Origin: Methanolobus chelungpuianus
GTDB taxonomy: Archaea; Halobacteriota; Methanosarcinia; Methanosarcinales; Methanosarcinaceae
DNA length: 64,000 bases
NCBI RefSeq assembly: GCF_024500045.1
Contig: NZ_JTEO01000004.1
Span: 124,001 to 188,000, forward strand
Reading direction: 5' to 3'
In this document: in pieces, positions 52,510-63,555 of the stretch
Layout: each line of letters opens with the position of its first letter
How positions within the stretch are numbered: the first letter of the stretch is position 1
Position numbers and translations under genes: made by a program
The notes under the pieces: model-generated
Told to the model about the DNA's origin: nothing
Databases searched by the model: none
The model's input: only the letters and a program-made list of their open reading frames with translations

Positions 52510-53721
52510 TCAGGATCTTGTCATTTCCTTTGCAATCTCTGCAAGACGGCCACCGATATCCCTGCATGCTTTCAGGTCTTCTTTGAAAGGCCTGAACTTG
52601 ACCTGCAGGCTTTCCATGGCAAGTTCGTATCTTGCTGCTTCCATCTCCTTCTCCATACCTTTGGTCGCACCGCCGCCCCAGCCATAGGACCCGAAAAGGA
52701 AATATTTCTTATTCTTCGGATGAAGCCCTGTCATGTATGTCAGGAATCCGGCAACTGTGTAGAACATCTTATTGTTCATCGTAGGGGAGCCAATAGCAAT
52801 GACCGGCGAGTCCATGATCTCCTTCATGGTCATGCTCCAGTCATTCTTTCTCAGGTGACGTATCCTTACTTCCACACCTGCCTCCCTGACACCCTCGGCA
52901 ATCTCCATCGCCAGTTTCTCGGTGCTGCTCCACATGGTGTCATATATCACAAGCACCTTCTCTGACACCTCCCCCCGTGCCCACCTTCCATAGGCTTCGA
53001 TTATCCCTGCCGGGTCTTTCCTCCATATTATCCCGTGGGCTGGAGCTATCATCTCTATGCCTATTCCAAGCTCGTTCAGCTTATCGATGTATTTGAGTAC
53101 CTGCGCACTGAAAGGCAACAGGATGTTAGCATAATAGACAGCTGCATCTTCCATTACATCATCCACTTCGTCATCAAAGCGCTTGGAAGTTGCCACATGC
53201 TGGCCGAACGCATCATTGGAGAATAGTATCCTGTCTTCCTTGAGATATGTCTGCATGCTGTCAGGCCAGTGCAGCATGGTCGCCTCTATGAACATCAGCG
53301 TCTTCTTCCCCAGTTTTATCTCATCCCCGGTCTTTACCACCCGGAAGTTCCAGTCATCACATCCCATCTCCTTATAATGCTCACATAGTCCTGATTTCCC
53401 CTTCGGGCTTGCAATGAGGGTGGCATTCGTGGCAATGTCCATGATAGCAGGCAGTGATCCCGAGTGATCCATCTCCACGTGGTTGGAGATGACATAATCG
53501 ATCTTTGCAGGGTCAACGAGCTGTCTTATCCTCCTGAGCATCTCGTCCGAGAAACTTGCCTTCACCGTATCGATAAGTGCTATCTTCTCATCGATGATCA
53601 GGTATGCATTGTAGCTTCCTCCTTTAGGGGTCTCGTATCCGTGGAAGTCCCGAAGGTTCCAGTCAACAACGCCTACCCAGTAGATCCCTTTCGCTATCTC
53701 CAATGGCTGTAGCTCATCCAT
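52510..53721 (-). CDS. fprA: F420H2 oxidase FprA (A-type flavodiiron protein)
   Basis: 403 residues. The metallo-beta-lactamase-like domain carries the di-iron ligands HVEMDHSG (H81, E83, D85, H86), then LHWPDSM and PAHGIIWR. The C-terminal flavodoxin domain begins EKVLVIYDTMWSSTEKLAMEI and binds FMN. In methanogens this enzyme reduces O2 to water with F420H2. ATG 53721 follows GGAGACGGG; the longer frame is untranslated leader. It follows a ferritin-like gene by 19 nt. Confidence 0.95.
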   Translation of the reverse strand: MDELQPLEIAKGIYWVGVVDWNLRDFHGYETPKGGSYNAYLIIDEKIALIDTVKASFSDEMLRRIRQLVDPAKIDYVISNHVEMDHSGSLPAIMDIATNATLIASPKGKSGLCEHYKEMGCDDWNFRVVKTGDEIKLGKKTLMFIEATMLHWPDSMQTYLKEDRILFSNDAFGQHVATSKRFDDEVDDVMEDAAVYYANILLPFSAQVLKYIDKLNELGIGIEMIAPAHGIIWRKDPAGIIEAYGRWARGEVSEKVLVIYDTMWSSTEKLAMEIAEGVREAGVEVRIRHLRKNDWSMTMKEIMDSPVIAIGSPTMNNKMFYTVAGFLTYMTGLHPKNKKYFLFGSYGWGGGATKGMEKEMEAARYELAMESLQVKFRPFKEDLKACRDIGGRLAEIAKEMTRS

Positions 53722-53740
53722 AATCCCGTCTCCTGTATAT

Positions 53741-54229
53741 TCACGTCTGCATCCTGAACTCGGTGGCTGCTTCAAGAAGCTCGTCTATTATCCTGTAGTG
53801 GCCTCTTTCGGCAGCGGCAACATTCTCAAAGAAGGCTTTCTGCTCCTCGTCATCTGTTCTTCTTGCCAGCTCTGTGTAGAAATACTCGCTCTTGTGCTCA
53901 AACCTGAGGGCTGCCAGGAGAATACTTATTTCTCCCAGTTCCTTGCCGGAGAACTCCTTTGTGAAGGAAGCCTTGAAATCAGGGTAACTGAATTCCACAA
54001 CCGGAGCTTTTTTTTGTTCCCTGTACTGACGAAGATATTCTGCATGTTTCTTTTCCTCATCTGCAAGGAAGATATAAAGACCCATGACAGTTTCACTGCT
54101 CATACCGGACGCTTTTTCCATATAATACTCCCGTCCTTCGTTTTCAAGTTCAATGGCCATTGCAATTGCTTCGTCAACGGATCCAAGCTTGTCAAGCTTG
54201 TCAGATATTTCTTTTAACACATCTTTCAT
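53741..54229 (-). CDS. Ferritin-like / rubrerythrin-type di-iron protein
   Basis: About 162 residues, four-helix bundle with the ligand series E in AIELENEGREYY, E-x2-H in DEEKKHAEYL, E in LRFEHKSEYFY and E-x2-H in AAERGHYRII. There is no rubredoxin domain, so it resembles a truncated rubrerythrin (peroxide reduction or iron handling). It is the first gene of a leftward operon with fprA and the FTR-like gene, an oxygen/peroxide defence set. GGAG lies 8 nt before ATG 54229. Confidence 0.9.
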   Translation of the reverse strand: MKDVLKEISDKLDKLGSVDEAIAMAIELENEGREYYMEKASGMSSETVMGLYIFLADEEKKHAEYLRQYREQKKAPVVEFSYPDFKASFTKEFSGKELGEISILLAALRFEHKSEYFYTELARRTDDEEQKAFFENVAAAERGHYRIIDELLEAATEFRMQT

Positions 54230-54528
54230 GCTCATATCTCCGACAGAATGAAAGTCAAGTATAGTCAGTCAAATGCGATCCTGTTTTTGTTTGCCTGCCT
54301 ATGAACAAATCCCACTGCTTCACGTTATCAAAGTCGGGCTTAATATAACTTTCGAAGGTTGGCTCCGTTTAAAGCAGGTATGAACTGGGCATTGTTGATC
54401 CTTTTTAGAAAAAAAAGGCTGGCTAAACCTTTATTTAGAAACCTTTTTATTCACTATCATCCTTTACAAAGGTTATATTTAGTTTGATTCCAGTATTTTA
54501 AAAGTATTATTTTGATAGAGGTAATGTG

Positions 54529-55632
54529 ATGGATAAAATCAAGATCGCAATTGCGGGTATTGGCAATTGTGCAAGCTCTCTGATCCAGGGTATCGAGTAC
54601 TATAGGGACAAAAGTGAAAACGACTCCATAGGATTGATGCACTGGGATATCGGTGGTTACAGGCCTTCCGATATTGAGGTGGTTGCAGCCTTCGATATCG
54701 ACATGAGGAAAGTGGGAAAGGATGTTTCGGAGGCTATCTTTGCGCCGCCTAACTGCACTGCTGTGTTCTGCAGTGACATTCCCAAAACCGGCGTACTTGT
54801 AAAAATGGGCTGCACACTCGACGGCTTCTCAGACCACATGAAGGATTTCGATGAGAAGAGGACCTTTGTACCTTCAGGACAGCCTGAAGCCACTAAGGAG
54901 GGTATCGTCAAAGAGCTGAAAGACTCAGGTGCAGAGATATTACTCAACTATCTTCCGGTAGGCTCTGAACAGGCAACCCGGTTTTATATGGACTGCGCCC
55001 TTGATGCCGGTGTTGCATGTATCAACAACATGCCTGTCTTTATAGCAAGTGACCCGGAGTGGGCTGTCAGGTTTGAAAAGAAGGGTATCCCAATAATTGG
55101 GGACGACATCAAGGCACAGCTGGGTGCCACCATCACCCACAGAACGCTGGCGGACCTTTTCAACAAGCGCGGTGTGAAACTGGAGCGAACCTACCAGCTT
55201 AATACCGGCGGTAATACTGATTTCCTGAACATGCTCAACCGCAGCAGGCTTGCCTCTAAGAAAACGTCCAAGACAGAAGCTGTACAATCCGTAGTCGCAC
55301 AGCGTCTGGACGATGACAATATCCACGTCGGACCAAGCGATTACGTTCCCTGGCAGAACGATAATAAAGTTTGCTTCCTGAGAATGGAAGGCAAGCTCTT
55401 CGGGGACGTGCCCATGAACCTGGAGCTGCGTCTCTCAGTGGAGGATTCTCCAAATTCCGCGGGTGTAGTGATAGATGCCATCAGGTGCTGCAAGCTTGCC
55501 CTTGACAGAGGGACTGGCGGCGTGCTTTATTCACCGTCTGCCTATTTCATGAAGCATCCTCCCAGGCAGTTCACCGACGATCAGGCTCACAAGATGACCA
55601 GTGAGTTCATCCGCGGCGAGCGTGCAAACTGA
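54529..55632 (+). CDS. ino1: Inositol-1-phosphate synthase
   Basis: About 367 residues, NAD-dependent. AIAGIGNCASSLIQGIEYY is the NAD-binding Gly-rich loop, and LNYLPVGSEQATRFY, GDDIKAQLGATITHRTL and YQLNTGGNTDFLNM are the conserved catalytic segments. It converts glucose-6-phosphate to inositol phosphate, the precursor of archaetidylinositol. ATG 54529 follows AGAGGTAAT. The upstream 293-nt gap has TTATATTTAG (54474-54483) and TTTTAAAAG as TATA candidates and repeated AACCTTT / AAAGGTT motifs, but no gene. Confidence 0.95.
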   Translation: MDKIKIAIAGIGNCASSLIQGIEYYRDKSENDSIGLMHWDIGGYRPSDIEVVAAFDIDMRKVGKDVSEAIFAPPNCTAVFCSDIPKTGVLVKMGCTLDGFSDHMKDFDEKRTFVPSGQPEATKEGIVKELKDSGAEILLNYLPVGSEQATRFYMDCALDAGVACINNMPVFIASDPEWAVRFEKKGIPIIGDDIKAQLGATITHRTLADLFNKRGVKLERTYQLNTGGNTDFLNMLNRSRLASKKTSKTEAVQSVVAQRLDDDNIHVGPSDYVPWQNDNKVCFLRMEGKLFGDVPMNLELRLSVEDSPNSAGVVIDAIRCCKLALDRGTGGVLYSPSAYFMKHPPRQFTDDQAHKMTSEFIRGERAN

Positions 55633-55652
55633 AAGCCGAAACAGGCTGCAGC

Positions 55653-56486
55653 ATGATATATACTGAAGGACAGCGCCGGATATATGGTGTTGACTTCAGT
55701 GGCTCAAAGACAGCATGCAATAAGATATGGATAAGTGAAGGTATTGTCAATGAAGGTATCCTTGACATCTCTGCCTGTTACCCTATATCGAAGGTAGTTG
55801 CAGGCGGGGCAAAGGACCTTGATTCATGCCTGCTTGCAATGCGGTCCCTGATAAAGGGAAGTGGCAAAGGGATATTCGGTATGGATTTCCCTTTCAGCCT
55901 GCCTCATCCGCTGCTTTTTTCCGGGAATAATGATTCTGACTGGAGATCTTTCATAACTGCTTTTTCCGGCAGGTATTCCTCAGCCGAGCAATTCCGTGAG
56001 GATATGAGATCACTTGCCCCCGGCAGTGAGCTTAAGCGCCTGACTGACACAGAGGTCAAAGCTCCGTTCTGTGTGTACAACCTCCGGCTCTACAGGCAGA
56101 CCTATTTCGGTATCCGTGAAGTGCTGAGCCCTCTTGTGACCGAGGATTCGGCACGCGTCCTGCCCATGCAGGAACCTGCCAGTGACAAGCCCTGGCTTAT
56201 AGAGGTATGTCCCGCCTCTACGTTGAAAAAAGAAGGCCTCTATATCCCTTACAAAGGCAGGTCTTTCCGGGACTCAGAAGCAAGAGAGTACATCCTTGAG
56301 GAAATGCTGGACCGGGGAATAACTCTCTCCCCGCTCATAAGGGAGGCCGCCCATAAGAATGCAGACGGGGATGCCCTTGACAGTATAATCGCAGCCTTTG
56401 CAGTCTCCAGGGCCGTGAAGCAGCTGGACCTTTTACGGGAATCGCTCCCGCAGATATATCTTACTGAAGGTTACACATTTTTCTGA
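55653..56486 (+). CDS. DUF429 family protein (RNase H-like fold predicted)
   Basis: 277 residues. YGVDFSGSKTACNKIW near the start, GIFGMDFPFSLPH near 72, and NADGDALDSIIAAFAVSRAV near 235 supply acidic residues in an actin/RNase H-like arrangement. This family (COG2410-like) is of unknown function and may act on nucleic acid. It is 20 nt after ino1, probably co-transcribed; no functional link is evident. Confidence 0.8.
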   Translation: MIYTEGQRRIYGVDFSGSKTACNKIWISEGIVNEGILDISACYPISKVVAGGAKDLDSCLLAMRSLIKGSGKGIFGMDFPFSLPHPLLFSGNNDSDWRSFITAFSGRYSSAEQFREDMRSLAPGSELKRLTDTEVKAPFCVYNLRLYRQTYFGIREVLSPLVTEDSARVLPMQEPASDKPWLIEVCPASTLKKEGLYIPYKGRSFRDSEAREYILEEMLDRGITLSPLIREAAHKNADGDALDSIIAAFAVSRAVKQLDLLRESLPQIYLTEGYTFF

Positions 56487-56507: not shown

Positions 56508-57062
56508 TCAGGTCCTGTCAGGCCTGCTCACGCCGATTATATCGTACAGGTCTGAAGGCTTCTGGATCACGGTGATATTCTCCATCCCTGCAAGTTTCTC
56601 TGTATTGGAAACGTCGATCTCCCTCATCTTCAGGTTGATGGTCTTTCCCTGGGGTGATATGGTCTGCACACTCCCTCTCTTCTGGTCCACTGCCATTATG
56701 TAGATCGGGGTTTCGCCCTTTGCTGTCTGGGCAACTGCGTTTGTGAGCAGGGTGTCTGCTATCCCATAGACGATCTTCGCAACGGTGTTGGCAGTGGCAG
56801 GAGCAATGACAAGTGCATCATAGTGGCCCACCTGCAGGGGTCCCACAATGAAAGGTGAGTTAGGTCCTCCTTCCTTCTTGAAATCTGGGAAGTCTTTCTG
56901 CAGGTCGCCCCACATATGGTACCACTTGAGAACAGTTTCCCCTTCCTTTGAAAGGAAGACTGTTATCTCGACATCACTTCTTTTGCTGATATCCACCATT
57001 ACGTCGTACGTTTCCTTTATCAGGTCCCCTGAGCCTGTTATCCCCCATACTATCCTCTTCAT
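56508..57062 (-). CDS. AfpA-like archaeal flavoprotein
   Basis: 184-residue flavoprotein of the HFCD/dihydromethanopterin reductase superfamily: MKRIVWGITGSGDLIKETYDV, FMN-binding ALVIAPATANTVAKIVYGIADTLLTNAV. It lacks the extra ferredoxin domain of DmrX. The closest known relative by sequence feel is AfpA of Archaeoglobus, which accepts electrons from ferredoxin and occurs with Isf genes. It is the last gene of the redox operon (43 nt after the FNR-like gene). GGAGAG precedes the ATG. Confidence 0.82.
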   Translation of the reverse strand: MKRIVWGITGSGDLIKETYDVMVDISKRSDVEITVFLSKEGETVLKWYHMWGDLQKDFPDFKKEGGPNSPFIVGPLQVGHYDALVIAPATANTVAKIVYGIADTLLTNAVAQTAKGETPIYIMAVDQKRGSVQTISPQGKTINLKMREIDVSNTEKLAGMENITVIQKPSDLYDIIGVSRPDRT

Positions 57063-57105
57063 TTTGTAGTCTCTCCTGGTATTATTGTGTATATTGCCGC
57101 CTGTG

Positions 57106-57804
57106 TCAGTATCCTATCAGCGATTCTTTCTTTATCCTCATGTCCGGTATGCTTAGGGAGCGCAGTATTTCCACCATCGAGTCTACCATGGGAGGCGGCC
57201 CGCAAATGTAAAACTCCCTTATTGCATAGTCAGGCAATTCCCTTCTCACAAGGGTCTCGCTGATGCGGTCCCTGGACCCCGTCCAGCCCTCCGAGGCCCT
57301 TGTCAGGGTCTGGAACACCTTCAGGTGAGGGTTCAGGCTAAGCATTTCCGATAGCTCCTTCCAGAATATCATGTCCTCTTCGCTTCTGTCACTGCAGATC
57401 AGCACAATGTCCGTATCCAGTGACATATCAGTGCAGTATCTGCAGATGCTCCTCATGGGGGTGATACCTATCCCTCCGCTGAGCAGGGCAATCTTCTCGT
57501 ATTCTCCCTCATAGGTCATCTTGCCGTAGGGACCGCTGATGTTGAAGGTATCTCCTTTTACCATGGAATCCAGTGCATCCGAATATTCATGGCCGGTGAG
57601 TTTCTTTGTGAACTCCAGGTGCTCTTTTTCCGTAGGGCTGCTTGAAAGGCTGAACGGTTTGCTTATGCTTTTGCCGTTAACATCAAGCGTTACCACAATG
57701 TACTGCCCTGCTTTATAATCAAAATCCTCAGGCCTTCTGAACCTGAAGCTTTTGATATGTTCGCTGCGCCTTATTATCTCACTCACATGTGCCTGGAATT
57801 TCAA
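57106..57804 (-). CDS. Ferredoxin-NAD(P)+ reductase-like FAD enzyme
   Basis: 232 residues. The FAD domain has KPFSLSSSP (R-x-Y-S in most members, here K-P-F-S), and the NAD(P)H domain has LLSGGIGITPMRSICRY and FYICGPPPMVDSM. It transfers electrons between a pyridine nucleotide (or other donor) and an Fe-S or flavin protein; the encoded partners are the neighbouring ferredoxin and flavoproteins. TTG 57804 is the start, with GGAG upstream. It is 5 nt after the Isf gene. Confidence 0.9.
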   Translation of the reverse strand: MKFQAHVSEIIRRSEHIKSFRFRRPEDFDYKAGQYIVVTLDVNGKSISKPFSLSSSPTEKEHLEFTKKLTGHEYSDALDSMVKGDTFNISGPYGKMTYEGEYEKIALLSGGIGITPMRSICRYCTDMSLDTDIVLICSDRSEEDMIFWKELSEMLSLNPHLKVFQTLTRASEGWTGSRDRISETLVRRELPDYAIREFYICGPPPMVDSMVEILRSLSIPDMRIKKESLIGY

Positions 57805-57809
57805 TCTAT

Positions 57810-58436
57810 TTACTCCTGCTCTGCCTTCTTTATTAATAATGTGGTTTCCATCAGTTTTTTCATTGTCCTGCGGAGGCTCCTCAGCCCGTCGGGGTCCTCG
57901 GCTACTCCTTCGGCTCCCTTGTCCTTTGACCAGAAGGTTCCTCCCAGGTTGGACCCAAAAGATCCCCCTCCGACAGGTATCATTTCGCTGATAACGTAAA
58001 AGTCATGTATGGCCCTGATGGCAGGCTCCTGTCCTCCTATTCGGTCTCCTCCCACGGCTGCTGCAGCACCTACTTTATTCATGAACGCTTTCGGGTCACG
58101 GGCGACCACGGCCCTGCACCTGTCCAGTATTGTCTTTGTCTGGGCGCTGAGTGTGCCCTGGTAGACCGGAGTGCCTATTATCCAGGCATCGGCCCGGATC
58201 ATTTTCTCGTACAGCTCCACAAGATCGTCCTTATGGATGCATCCCTGTTTGGTACGCACGCAGTAGTCACAGTGGATACAGAACTTCATGTCCTTTCCGC
58301 TTGCAGAGAAGTATTCGGTTTCTGCACCGTATTTCTCCCGTGCATAACGCAGGGCTTCGTTCACAATATAATCTGTGGCTTTCTTCCTAGGGCTGCCTGA
58401 TATACCAAGCAGCCGGATAGCTGAACCTTCGGACAT
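57810..58436 (-). CDS. Iron-sulfur flavoprotein (Isf family)
   Basis: 208 residues. Flavodoxin-like fold (LLGISGSPRKKATDYIV; GTPVYQGTLSAQTK) with the compact 4Fe-4S motif Cys53-x2-Cys56-x2-Cys59-x6-Cys66. In Methanosarcina, Isf homologues take electrons from ferredoxin and reduce O2 or H2O2. Here it is co-encoded with a ferredoxin 21 nt upstream and an FNR-like gene. GGAG precedes ATG 58436. Confidence 0.92.
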   Translation of the reverse strand: MSEGSAIRLLGISGSPRKKATDYIVNEALRYAREKYGAETEYFSASGKDMKFCIHCDYCVRTKQGCIHKDDLVELYEKMIRADAWIIGTPVYQGTLSAQTKTILDRCRAVVARDPKAFMNKVGAAAAVGGDRIGGQEPAIRAIHDFYVISEMIPVGGGSFGSNLGGTFWSKDKGAEGVAEDPDGLRSLRRTMKKLMETTLLIKKAEQE

Positions 58437-58457
58437 ATGGCACTCCTGTCTCCTTGA

Positions 58458-58649
58458 TCACTCGATGCTTATTGATTCCGTGGGGCAGGCGTCAATGCAT
58501 ATCCCGCACTCAACGCAATCTTCTGGCCGGGCGACAACGGACCTGAGTTCTCCGCTTCCGTCCTCCTGAAGCTCTATCGCGTTTGTCGGGCAGGCCTGGA
58601 CGCATGCTCCGATGCCTTCACATTTGCTTTTATCTACTTTTACAGGCAC
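58458..58649 (-). CDS. Ferredoxin with one complete and one incomplete cluster motif
   Basis: 63 residues. The second motif is canonical (C45-x2-C48-x2-C51-x3-C55-P). The first is C10-EGI-G-A-C16-x3-C20-P, where Ile13 replaces the second Cys, so the first cluster is probably 3Fe-4S or has a non-Cys ligand. GTG 58649 is supported by AGGAGGAT. It sits between the pentaheme cytochrome and Isf genes, suggesting it shuttles electrons within this operon's proteins on the cytoplasmic side. Confidence 0.92.
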   Translation of the reverse strand: MPVKVDKSKCEGIGACVQACPTNAIELQEDGSGELRSVVARPEDCVECGICIDACPTESISIE

Positions 58650-58665
58650 TACTATATCCTCCTTT

Positions 58666-60069
58666 TCATTGTTTTTTCTCCGGGTTGAGAAGCGTCAATA
58701 ACAAAGTCAGCGCTATCAGCGCGACAGCTGCCATGGGAGCCGTGAAACCGGGTGTTTCTGCCTGGGCCTCCACAGGCCTGTCAGGGTCATATATGCTGCC
58801 TGATGCCTGGACCATGCTTATCACAGGCACTTCATGCACCCCTTCTCCGAACAGGTGGTCCACCAGTCCCTGGGGCGCTGACATATATTTTAAGGTTGCA
58901 AGCACAGTTACCGGGTATGCCGTATTTTCCGGCAGGGTGAAAGTGTGCTCCTCGATAACGGTCTCCCTGGGAGCTATCCTGTTATCTGCAATGACCCTGT
59001 CCGCAAGCCAGAAGCTCAGGGTCTCGTTCCCTGCACCGTCCCCAAGCACGGTATTATACATCATGCCCGGTTCCATGCCCGGGGAGCTGCCCACTTTTGC
59101 TGTGCTGTAGATATTCTGTCCCTTGCTGTCGGTAACTTCCACCTGCAGCCACAACTGGCGGATCTCGGAGACTCCTGTGGGCAGCATGTGGCCTGCACCT
59201 GAGTTGGTGATAGCTACCTCGATAGTGACATTGTTTCCTTTGTTTGCAGTAAGGGGTGCATCAAGGCTGAGAGTTGCGGCTTTTTGCAGTCTCTCAATGG
59301 CGAGCTTCCTTTGTTTCTCAGCTCCCAGCATCCCAGTTACGAATGCATTTCCTCCTACGGTGCCGTGCAGTGATATGTGCTCCCTCTTTACTGAACTTGA
59401 TGCGGACCTGCCGGGATTAGCCTTGAATTCGGTAATTCCCGGGCTCATGTGGCAGTCCTGACAGGTCACACCGTTCTGTCCGTAGTAGCTCTCTTTCCAT
59501 GTGCTGTAGGTATCATCGATCACAAGGCCATTGACAGGATGACTGACCTGGTGGCACATGCCACAGAATTCAGACTGCGTGTGAAGCTCCAGATATTCTG
59601 AGGCGTGGTAAGCTGACTTCGAATCATTGAATGGCCCCCATTTCATATTACCCGGACTGGCGATGAAAGGCGCATTGCCGGTGCCGTTACTGCCAGAGAC
59701 CGTATGGCAGAAGTCACATTGAACTCCTTCATGTGCGATCTCACTGAGCTGTGATCCGTCTGCAGGGGGTATCTCGCCGGCAAGTACGCCTATGGGAGTG
59801 TGACAGCGGGAGCAGAACTCATCGACCAGCCCTTCAGTATCCTTGCCGGCTGCATGGAACTCCCGCTGGTATAAGGGGTCAGCATATGCATTTGCATGCA
59901 TCGTTCCTTCCCATTGGTAATGGATGATTGCATGGCACTGCTGGCATTTGCTGGCAGCTGTGAATTCCGATGAGGAATATTCTCCTGCAGGTGTGGGCTC
60001 TGCTGCACTCGTACAGCCTGCAAGTAATGAGAACGCCATGATCGCGGTCAATAGGATGGTGGCTCTGAT
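58666..60069 (-). CDS. Pentaheme c-type cytochrome, lipobox and PGF-like C-terminus
   Basis: About 467 residues. A hydrophobic leader ends in LLAGC. Five CxxCH heme sites follow: CQQCH, CSRCH, CDFCH, CGMCH and CQDCH, all in the first half. The second half is a beta-rich domain (SLDAPLTANKGNNVTIEVAITNSG onward). The tail TPGFTAPMAAVALIALTLLL plus KK resembles a PGF-CTERM membrane anchor. It is therefore an extracytoplasmic electron-transfer protein. The first standard start is TTG 60051, but GGAGGA (60076-60081) points to an in-frame ATC at 60067-60069, which also completes the signal peptide (RATILLTAIMAFSLLAGC). Confidence 0.9.
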   Translation of the reverse strand: MRATILLTAIMAFSLLAGCTSAAEPTPAGEYSSSEFTAASKCQQCHAIIHYQWEGTMHANAYADPLYQREFHAAGKDTEGLVDEFCSRCHTPIGVLAGEIPPADGSQLSEIAHEGVQCDFCHTVSGSNGTGNAPFIASPGNMKWGPFNDSKSAYHASEYLELHTQSEFCGMCHQVSHPVNGLVIDDTYSTWKESYYGQNGVTCQDCHMSPGITEFKANPGRSASSSVKREHISLHGTVGGNAFVTGMLGAEKQRKLAIERLQKAATLSLDAPLTANKGNNVTIEVAITNSGAGHMLPTGVSEIRQLWLQVEVTDSKGQNIYSTAKVGSSPGMEPGMMYNTVLGDGAGNETLSFWLADRVIADNRIAPRETVIEEHTFTLPENTAYPVTVLATLKYMSAPQGLVDHLFGEGVHEVPVISMVQASGSIYDPDRPVEAQAETPGFTAPMAAVALIALTLLLTLLNPEKKQ

Positions 60070-60182
60070 AGTGTTTCCTCCGTTTTGGTATGGTGTGCCA
60101 TGCAGCAGGCGCAGCTCGTAAGGTCAGTGCCCGATGCAATGGACAATTAAGATCAAAAGAGGACCAGGGGTCCTCCTGATCC

Positions 60183-60596
60183 TTATTTAAGCATTCTCAG
60201 TGCATGCCTGCAGGCTGCAACAGCAGGTGCTCCGGAGGTGATGAAGATCACATCCATCACTTCCATGATCTCCTCTTTTGTCGCTCCGTGATTGAGGGCG
60301 CTCTTCATCTGAGCAACAACGCAGGTCTCACATTGCTTTGAGGCTACTACGGCCAGTGCCATCAGGATCTTTGTCTTTGCAGGAAGCACACCGTCCTTGA
60401 GAAGCTTGCTGTTGCACATATTGTACTTGTGGAGGAACTCCGGTTCCAGCTCGTCAAGGGTCTCCAGTATATATGGTGTGAACCCAAGTTTCTCGGACAT
60501 GTCTCCGAGCAGTCCTTCGTGCCTTGTTTTCTCCCCGTTTATTATTCTGTCCTTATTCCCTTTCTCATCTTCGTATCTCTTTGCGTTTCCACACAT
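60183..60596 (-). CDS. Carboxymuconolactone decarboxylase/AhpD-like protein
   Basis: 137 residues. All-helical CMD fold with [20 protein letters not shown]: Cys89-x2-Cys92 and His103, the AhpD-type peroxidase/disulfide site. It is probably a thiol redox protein rather than a true decarboxylase. ATG 60596 is preferred since AAGGAG lies 9 nt upstream; the TTG at 60605 touches it. It lies between the DUF2180 genes and the cytochrome in the same operon. Confidence 0.9.
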
Positions 60597-60627
60597 ATCT
60601 TCCAACTCCTTGTTTGAGAATGAACGT

Positions 60628-60846
60628 TCAGTCGAATCCGTCCTCGATGGTATGATCCAGGCAGTAGCTGCACATTAACCGGGGCAGTCCCTTTGGAAGC
60701 CTTTCCACATGAGGCGGCTTTCCCACTGACACCGGCAGCTCAAATTCCCTGGCATGGTCCATACATAGTCCTTTGCCGCATACGATACACACACATGCAG
60801 ATTCAGTGTCCTTTCCTGTTTCCATGCAATCATAGCATTTCATCAT
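60628..60846 (-). CDS. DUF2180 small zinc-ribbon protein A
   Basis: 72 residues with [25 protein letters not shown]-type spacing: C-x2-C, CVCIVC-x4-C, H in MDHAREFEL, and a final CSYC-x2-H. Such Cys/His pairs would bind one or two zinc ions. The family is specific to methanogens and relatives and has no known function. It is a paralogue of the next gene upstream (9 nt apart). GGTG is 5 nt before ATG 60846. Confidence 0.83.
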
Positions 60847-60854
60847 GATATCAC

Positions 60855-61094
60855 CTAGTAGTTTTCCTTCAGGGCCTCATGGCAGGGTATGCACAGTATT
60901 TTCTTTATATGCTGCACATCCTCGTATTTGCATTCGACTCCCATGCCGCATTTTAACCTGATGCTGTATTCCCCTTCCCATACGGGAGTGTCTTCCCTTA
61001 CCAGGTGTTGTTTACATACTCCTCTTCCGCAGACTATACAGATAGCTACAGTATCAGTGTTTTTGTCATTTTTTGAGCATTCATAACATTTCAT
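60855..61094 (-). CDS. DUF2180 small zinc-ribbon protein B
   Basis: 79 residues, related to protein A: MKCYECSKNDKNTDTVAIC, CIVCGRGVCKQH, and a C-terminal CIPCHEAL. It is the first gene of the redox operon. ATG 61094 is chosen (GTGATC upstream); a GTG at 61103 is an alternative. The N-terminal half matches protein A closely, with the spacing of Cys residues conserved, which indicates a tandem duplication. Confidence 0.83.
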   Translation of the reverse strand: MKCYECSKNDKNTDTVAICIVCGRGVCKQHLVREDTPVWEGEYSIRLKCGMGVECKYEDVQHIKKILCIPCHEALKENY

Positions 61095-62499
<1,405 letters not shown>

Positions 62500-62526: not shown

Positions 62527-63555
62527 ATGGCCCATCCCAAGATATTAGAGGTCATTGAACACGACGTCTGCACAGCTTGCGGGGCATGTGTTTCAACATG
62601 CCCTGCCGGCGCTATTGTCATGAACAAGCGTGCAGAGATCCGTGACCCTGATAATTTAGAGTTGTACGTCAAAGGAGCAGCACCCAATGTATGTGAGGGA
62701 TGTCTTACATGCGCAAGGCTCTGCCCTGTAATTGACGGATATGTGGAAGACGAATTTGCAAATGTGAAAGAGTTCTTTGCAGCAAAGAGTGCTATCAAAG
62801 GCCAGGACGGTGGTGTCACTTCAATACTGGCAAAGACTTTGCTCGAGACCGGCACTGTGGATTGTATTGTAGGTATCGCCAGGGATGATCAATGGGGTAC
62901 TGAACTTATACTTATGACCAAGCCTGAGGATGTTGACCAGACCACAGGTACCAAGTATACTTATGATTCAGTTCTTTCAGCTCTCAGGGAGCCCTTTGAG
63001 AAGTATGACAAGATCGGTGTGATCGGCGTCCCCTGCCAGGCACATGGAGCGCGTCTTATCTTTGAGAACGCAAGCGACAAGATCGTTGTTATTATAGGCC
63101 TGCTGTGCATGGAAAGCTTCCACCATGATGTGATGACCGAGAAGATAATCCCTGAAGTAATGGGGCTTAAGCTCGAAGATGTGGTCAAGATGAACTTCAA
63201 TAAGGGGAAGTTCTGGAACTACACGAAGGACGGTCAGGAGCACAGTGTGAAGATCGCGGATGTTGCCCATTATGCAAGGAACCCCTGTCACCACTGCTGT
63301 GACTATACCTCAGTGTTTGCCGATATCTCGCTGGGTTCTGTTGGAGCTCCTGAAGGATGGAACAGTGTGTTCATACGCACGGAGGAAGGAAGGAAGATCT
63401 TCGACCTCGTGAAGGATAAAGTTGAGATCATGGAAGACCCGAAGCCGGGACTGGACATGGTCAAGAAACTTGCCCAGATGAAGCACGACAACAACAAGAA
63501 ACACTACCTTGAAGTATGTGAAGAGTTCACATTCGATGAGTGTGGCTTTCACTGA
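62527..63555 (+). CDS. fpoF: F420H2 dehydrogenase subunit FpoF (FrhB family)
   Basis: 342 residues, cytosolic FAD/Fe-S protein that oxidises F420H2. Two 4Fe-4S motifs: CTACGACVSTCPAGA (near 15) and CEGCLTCARLCP (near 56). The FrhB-type body follows (GGVTSILAKTLL, IGVIGVPCQAHGARL, GLLCMESFHHDVM, ending FDECGFH). It may feed the membrane Fpo complex or act as a soluble F420H2:ferredoxin oxidoreductase. Its place right after mer, outside the fpo operon, is as known in Methanosarcina. GGAGG precedes the ATG. Confidence 0.96.
   Translation: MAHPKILEVIEHDVCTACGACVSTCPAGAIVMNKRAEIRDPDNLELYVKGAAPNVCEGCLTCARLCPVIDGYVEDEFANVKEFFAAKSAIKGQDGGVTSILAKTLLETGTVDCIVGIARDDQWGTELILMTKPEDVDQTTGTKYTYDSVLSALREPFEKYDKIGVIGVPCQAHGARLIFENASDKIVVIIGLLCMESFHHDVMTEKIIPEVMGLKLEDVVKMNFNKGKFWNYTKDGQEHSVKIADVAHYARNPCHHCCDYTSVFADISLGSVGAPEGWNSVFIRTEEGRKIFDLVKDKVEIMEDPKPGLDMVKKLAQMKHDNNKKHYLEVCEEFTFDECGFH

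Follow-up and report, generated by a model that had tools for sequence, protein, structure and literature searches.

What is a multiheme cytochrome of the cell surface doing in an operon of cytoplasmic flavoproteins? The question is raised by a 64,000-nucleotide stretch of Methanolobus chelungpuianus DNA (contig NZ_JTEO01000004.1, positions 124,001 to 188,000; hereafter the window), in which eight open reading frames (ORFs) lie on the minus strand at 56508-61103 with gaps of about 5-114 nt, in the order DUF2180 B, DUF2180 A, AhpD-like protein, pentaheme cytochrome, ferredoxin, Isf-like iron-sulfur flavoprotein, FNR-like reductase and AfpA. ORFs and domain matches bore out a sequence-only reading of this layout, including the gene families, the spacing and the position opposite mer-fpoF. 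That reading offered two functions, an electron conduit to an outside acceptor or a defence against O2 and peroxide, and took the gene set for an undescribed system. The set has in fact been called a putative oxidative-stress operon (PMC3729527); this published prediction for Methanosarcina acetivorans and the gene neighbourhoods in several lineages support the defence, but the conduit did not hold up. We conclude that the locus is the Methanolobus form, a family-wide variant, of the predicted methanosarcinal oxidative-stress operon (MA4664/MA3734-3743), and that the cytochrome probably forms a separate, extracytoplasmic arm of defence against O2 and reactive oxygen species (ROS).

Isom et al. 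(2013) describe the M. acetivorans relative as a putative oxidative-stress operon, in which MA3743 is an F420H2 oxidase homologue (PMC3729527, citing Lessner and Ferry 2007). In a genome of 5,751,492 bases that we presume to be M. acetivorans C2A, the cluster reads DUF2180 B, DUF2180 A, AhpD-like protein (MdrA), superoxide reductase (SOR; confirmed as PF01880), cytochrome, Isf, AfpA, rubrerythrin (Rbr) and the flavodiiron protein FprA, and is divergent from mer and fpoF. The window shares with this cluster the order DUF2180 B, DUF2180 A, MdrA, cytochrome, Isf, AfpA and the divergence from mer/fpoF, but it has the ferredoxin and FNR genes in addition and no SOR, either between MdrA and the cytochrome or elsewhere in the window. 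Moreover, Rbr-FprA is contiguous downstream in M. acetivorans, whereas in the window it has the operon's strand and order but stands 2.3 kb off, behind two oppositely directed genes; these Rbr and F420H2 oxidase genes (52510-54235) belong to the extended locus. The intervening plus-strand pair (54526-56486), inositol-phosphate synthase-like and DUF429-like, separates the operon from Rbr-FprA across much of the family and is absent from this position in Methanosarcina. The order of locus tags, the number of hemes and the position lead us to infer that the window cytochrome is the ortholog of MA3739 (same locus position, five hemes, ~45% identity), which the literature presents as an extracellular electron transfer candidate and lists without a transmembrane helix (PMC6703419).

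The sequence-only reading had made the grouping depend in part on its recurrence in other genomes, a check that the gene set passed. Each of the 26 other Methanolobus genomes examined has the locus with its gene order kept (one copy cut by a contig end, one without the ferredoxin, two with a cytochrome remnant); it also occurs in loci labelled Methanomethylovorans, Methanococcoides, Methanohalophilus, Methanohalobium and Methanosarcina, and the order is kept in most other Methanosarcinaceae. Because the order recurs across genus and family, the gene set is far beyond chance. Individual members do drop out: the ferredoxin is missing from four loci (L025, L027, L028, L030), the FNR-type reductase from the Methanosarcina clusters, and many Methanosarcina without the cytochrome retain Isf-AfpA-Rbr, with or without FprA. 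In two Methanolobus relatives (G015 and G026), the heme domain is wholly deleted in frame (L037 5016-5432; L038 5036-5356), such that the signal region is fused in frame to the C-terminal end, and the remaining operon genes are intact. Thus, the cytoplasmic set persists without the cytochrome.

The cytochrome, in turn, is linked to ROS genes in other settings. In the ANME-1 group of anaerobic methanotrophic archaea (Methanophagales/Methanolliviera), SOR directly follows the cytochrome in 12 of 13 loci, some of them from the same metagenome-assembled genome. The ANME-1 cytochrome is homologous over its full length to that of the window (~45% identity), but its island neighbours are Fur, a NapC-like cytochrome (5 loci), ferritin-like proteins, SOR, catalase, peroxiredoxin, flavodoxins and FprA, and only sometimes Isf-AfpA. 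Examples of such peroxide/superoxide islands are L101 2809-12198, L104 2592-11746, L107 and L111. In Methanoperedens, FprA adjoins the cytochrome on the opposite strand in three loci (L117-L119; ORF complete in L117 and L119, Pfam check for L117). In the separate locus L091, the genes for cytochrome, FprA and bacterioferritin follow one another. Among 27 Methanosarcina genomes at least 80% complete from the class search, 9 carried both cytochrome and SOR and 18 carried neither (Fisher p ~2e-7, 1/C(27,9), a value that ignores shared ancestry and gene adjacency and is supporting only). In an IQ-TREE phylogeny of 55 cytochromes, the Methanosarcinaceae (96/96) and ANME-1 plus Methanoperedens (98/98) formed separate clades, with most bacteria apart; therefore, the ROS linkage holds across different gene orders, in clades that split from each other inside the family.

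The new point, then, is that a pentaheme cytochrome so far tested only for electron exchange with outside partners adjoins O2- and peroxide-detoxifying genes in three archaeal groups. Since O2/ROS genes accompany it in three archaeal contexts, we consider O2/ROS defence a better first hypothesis for this protein than extracellular electron transfer. The link to the ROS genes is well supported; the chemistry we infer.

Several observations weigh against a role in defence. We know of no O2 phenotype of MA3739, and many Methanosarcina live without the cytochrome. Its co-occurrence with SOR partly reflects linkage of neighbouring genes; in other genera SOR is also found without the cytochrome, one family (f5) has the cytochrome without SOR, and the SOR match of the window's own genome lies elsewhere (C4:530445). 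None of 17 bacterial homolog loci had ROS neighbours apart from rubrerythrin-like (L116) and Fur-like (L132, L134) genes, in a scan whose archaeal queries could miss distant bacterial genes and in which some contigs were short. The regulator MsvR does not bind the upstream regions of the MA4664/MA3734-3743 cluster (PMC3729527); in the 64-kb window, MsvR-type sites (TTCGN7-9CGAA) number 3, against 1.56 expected, with none near the operon. Finally, MA3739 transcripts are 4.1-fold up with anthraquinone-2,6-disulfonate (AQDS; PMC6703419), higher in direct interspecies electron transfer (DIET) and raised by 80% in an mmcA mutant, all of which would fit a role in electron transfer too.

The cytochrome of the window has exactly five CxxCH motifs, and its AlphaFold model (pLDDT 89.3, pTM 0.83) gave a single full-length match in the Protein Data Bank (PDB) by Foldseek, the penta-heme cytochrome c552 of Thermochromatium tepidum (5ze8; E 6e-20, TM score 0.73 by target length). 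The match spans the heme domain and the C-terminal beta domain, and 5ze8 presumably consists of a heme domain and an Ig-like domain. Thus, the two proteins share a whole-length fold but differ in sequence (20% identity), organism and context. In the cytochrome alignment, the distal histidine is essentially invariant at four sites (H58 98%; H155, H235 and H294 100%), and candidates for the fifth are conserved at 87-91% (H231, H177), such that six-coordination looks likely for most hemes, and one of the five may be labile. NrfA-like catalysis was considered and rejected, as the protein has no CxxCK heme motif and the four distal histidines are essentially invariant. In the Ig-like domain, the motif GAGHMLPTG (conserved GAGHxxPTG) aligns beside selenocysteine U325 of the multiheme selenoprotein MccSep (PDB 9wt8); the residue aligned with U325 is Val in the window.

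The C-terminal tail (TPGF, a hydrophobic stretch, KKQ) resembles a PGF-CTERM archaeosortase signal; it scores below the TIGR04126 cut-off (19.2 against 24.5 bits), whereas the tail of an ANME-1 homolog passes, and archaeosortase A (ArtA) is encoded in the window's genome. A lipid anchor on the outer face is thus the likely, predicted arrangement. At the other end, the true start is probably a non-AUG codon, the ATC at 60067-60069, seven bases after GGAGG, rather than the TTG at 60051. Several relatives (L028, L041, L044) have ATC, ATT or ATA at this place of the alignment, after strong Shine-Dalgarno sequences, and in L028 and L044 an in-frame stop lies closely upstream. The recurrence of a rare start codon in these genes could limit translation.

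We propose that the locus works as a two-sided oxidative-stress operon, whose genes would be cotranscribed and induced by O2. Inside the cell, reducing power from ferredoxin or NAD(P)H would reach O2 and peroxide through Isf, AfpA, the ferredoxin and the FNR-type reductase. The task of MdrA would be disulfide repair, and the rubrerythrin and F420H2 oxidase encoded nearby would clear peroxide and O2. Archaeoglobus AfpA is said to take electrons from ferredoxin. The pentaheme cytochrome, held at the outer membrane face as a separate extracytoplasmic arm, would reduce O2 or ROS before they enter the cell; it would probably draw its electrons from the methanophenazine pool, and in ANME-1 the membrane quinone pool would supply them by way of the NapC-like cytochrome. 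To our knowledge, an extracytoplasmic heme-based ROS defence has not been described in these archaea. In its most specific form, the proposal makes the lipid-anchored cytochrome a surface detoxification enzyme for O2/peroxide or superoxide in methanogens and methanotrophic archaea, fed by the membrane carrier pool (with the NapC-like partner in ANME-1); this we put forward tentatively, as a possibility that we would not yet call probable. For the cytoplasmic side, Isf is stated to react with O2 and H2O2 in a passage of PMC4338226 that cites Cruz and Ferry (2006).

If instead the operon were an electron conduit, the cytochrome would move electrons between cytoplasmic ferredoxin or flavins and an outside acceptor, as one might expect of a multiheme surface protein whose inferred ortholog has raised transcript levels with AQDS, in DIET and in an mmcA mutant. 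The protein also has a weak similarity to Geobacter ExtKL, although at 60 bits against a cut-off of 250 (NF040886) identity with ExtKL was rejected. However, domain searches found no membrane or trans-membrane redox carrier among the products of the eight operon genes, and the single C-terminal helix of the cytochrome is without a heme ligand. Furthermore, the flavoprotein genes outlast the cytochrome, and deletion of MA3739 left both AQDS reduction (PMC6703419) and use of Fe(0) (PMC10989991) unaffected, as well as DIET, according to a statement in PMC10989991 that refers to earlier work. A separate MmcA-like multiheme cytochrome is encoded in the window's own genome, apart from the operon (L155 1168-2664). 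MmcA (MA0658) is likewise a surface multiheme cytochrome of Methanosarcinaceae, but it has seven hemes, adjoins Rnf and is needed for AQDS reduction (PMC6703419). The case for a conduit is therefore weak, and we consider it unlikely.

Loss of the cytochrome while Isf-AfpA-Rbr-FprA stays would also be expected if two independent functions met at one locus, a cytoplasmic O2-defence core and a cytochrome acting on another extracytoplasmic substrate, such as a nitrogen or sulfur oxyanion. The unrelated neighbourhoods of the bacterial homologs and weak sequence matches of the cytochrome to nitrite reductase cytochromes point the same way, and the nearest solved structure is not known to have an assigned function. 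Nevertheless, the missing CxxCK motif of the NrfA type and the ties of the cytochrome to SOR, FprA and catalase genes across three archaeal clades speak against this reading, and we regard two independent functions as quite improbable. It is hardly to be expected that the cytochrome, instead of reducing O2 or peroxide, acts as a superoxide oxidase or an electron sink that accepts electrons from superoxide outside the cell and gives back O2: cytochromes c do react with superoxide in general and SOR stands beside it most consistently in ANME-1 and Methanosarcina, but the SOR sequences read show no obvious export signal, which would place the two proteins in different compartments.

The remaining operon genes fit their assigned families (Table 1). 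The Isf-like protein combines the FMN_red fold with C53-x2-C56-x2-C59-x6-C66, within the required CX2CX2CX4-7C spacing. In the AhpD-like protein, alignment places Cys39, Cys67-x2-Cys70 and Cys107 as in the M. acetivorans copy (L139), which is reportedly MdrA, an Fe-S regulated protein disulfide reductase in which these residues are said to have roles. Relatives in the PDB are 3wis/4mwg for AfpA and cytochrome b5 reductases for the FNR-type reductase. AfpA was rejected as a DmrX dihydromethanopterin reductase, with 151 bits against a cut-off of 251 for TIGR02700 and no fused ferredoxin domain; the N-terminal half of this DmrX-type model is matched by AfpA and the C-terminal half by the small ferredoxin, as if the operon had split them. 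DUF2180 B may start at ATG 61094 or GTG 61103.

Table 1. Genes of the operon, its extended locus and its divergent neighbours in the window
Feature	Coordinates	Strand	Basis or remark
FprA-type flavodiiron protein (F420H2 oxidase), extended locus	52510..53724	-	PF19583 + Flavodoxin_1
Rubrerythrin-like protein, extended locus	53741..54235	-	Methanosarcina homolog directly downstream of AfpA
AfpA, FMN archaeoflavoprotein, last of eight	56508..57062	-	TIGR02699, 254.9 bits (cut-off 192.45)
FNR-type FAD/NAD(P)H reductase, 232 aa, without 2Fe-2S domain	57106..57804	-	PF00970, PF00175
Isf-like iron-sulfur flavoprotein	57810..58436	-	PF03358 (FMN_red) + compact Cys motif
2[4Fe-4S] ferredoxin, 63 aa	58458..58649	-	PF12838, PF00037
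Pentaheme c-type cytochrome	58666..60069	-	5 CxxCH, PF13435; signal peptide, five-heme domain, Ig-like domain, PGF-CTERM-like tail
AhpD/CMD-fold protein, MA3736 (MdrA) ortholog	60183..60605	-	PF02627; ATG start possible at 60596
DUF2180 A, cysteine-rich	60628..60846	-	PF09947, 73.5 bits
DUF2180 B, cysteine-rich, first gene (MA4664 position)	60855..61103	-	PF09947, 81.9 bits
mer, divergent neighbour (context)	61513..62499	+	Named by the sequence-only reading; neighbour conserved in relatives
fpoF, divergent neighbour (context)	62527..63555	+	Named by the sequence-only reading; neighbour conserved in relatives

It is usual to regard the multiheme cytochromes of methanogens and ANME as wires that lead to partners or minerals. 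The words superoxide and oxygen are absent from an ANME comparison (PMC9012536), and the M. mahii genome paper lists FprA, SOR, Rbr, Dps and KatG as O2 defences and mentions neither "cytochrome c" nor "flavoprotein". The proposal of a defensive role is directly testable, because MA3739 deletion strains exist already (PMC6703419). If this cytochrome family does serve oxygen defence, the cytochrome counts used to infer electron exchange would need correction, the lack of an extracellular electron transfer phenotype in the MA3739 deletion would be explained, and these strict anaerobes would gain an O2 barrier outside the membrane.

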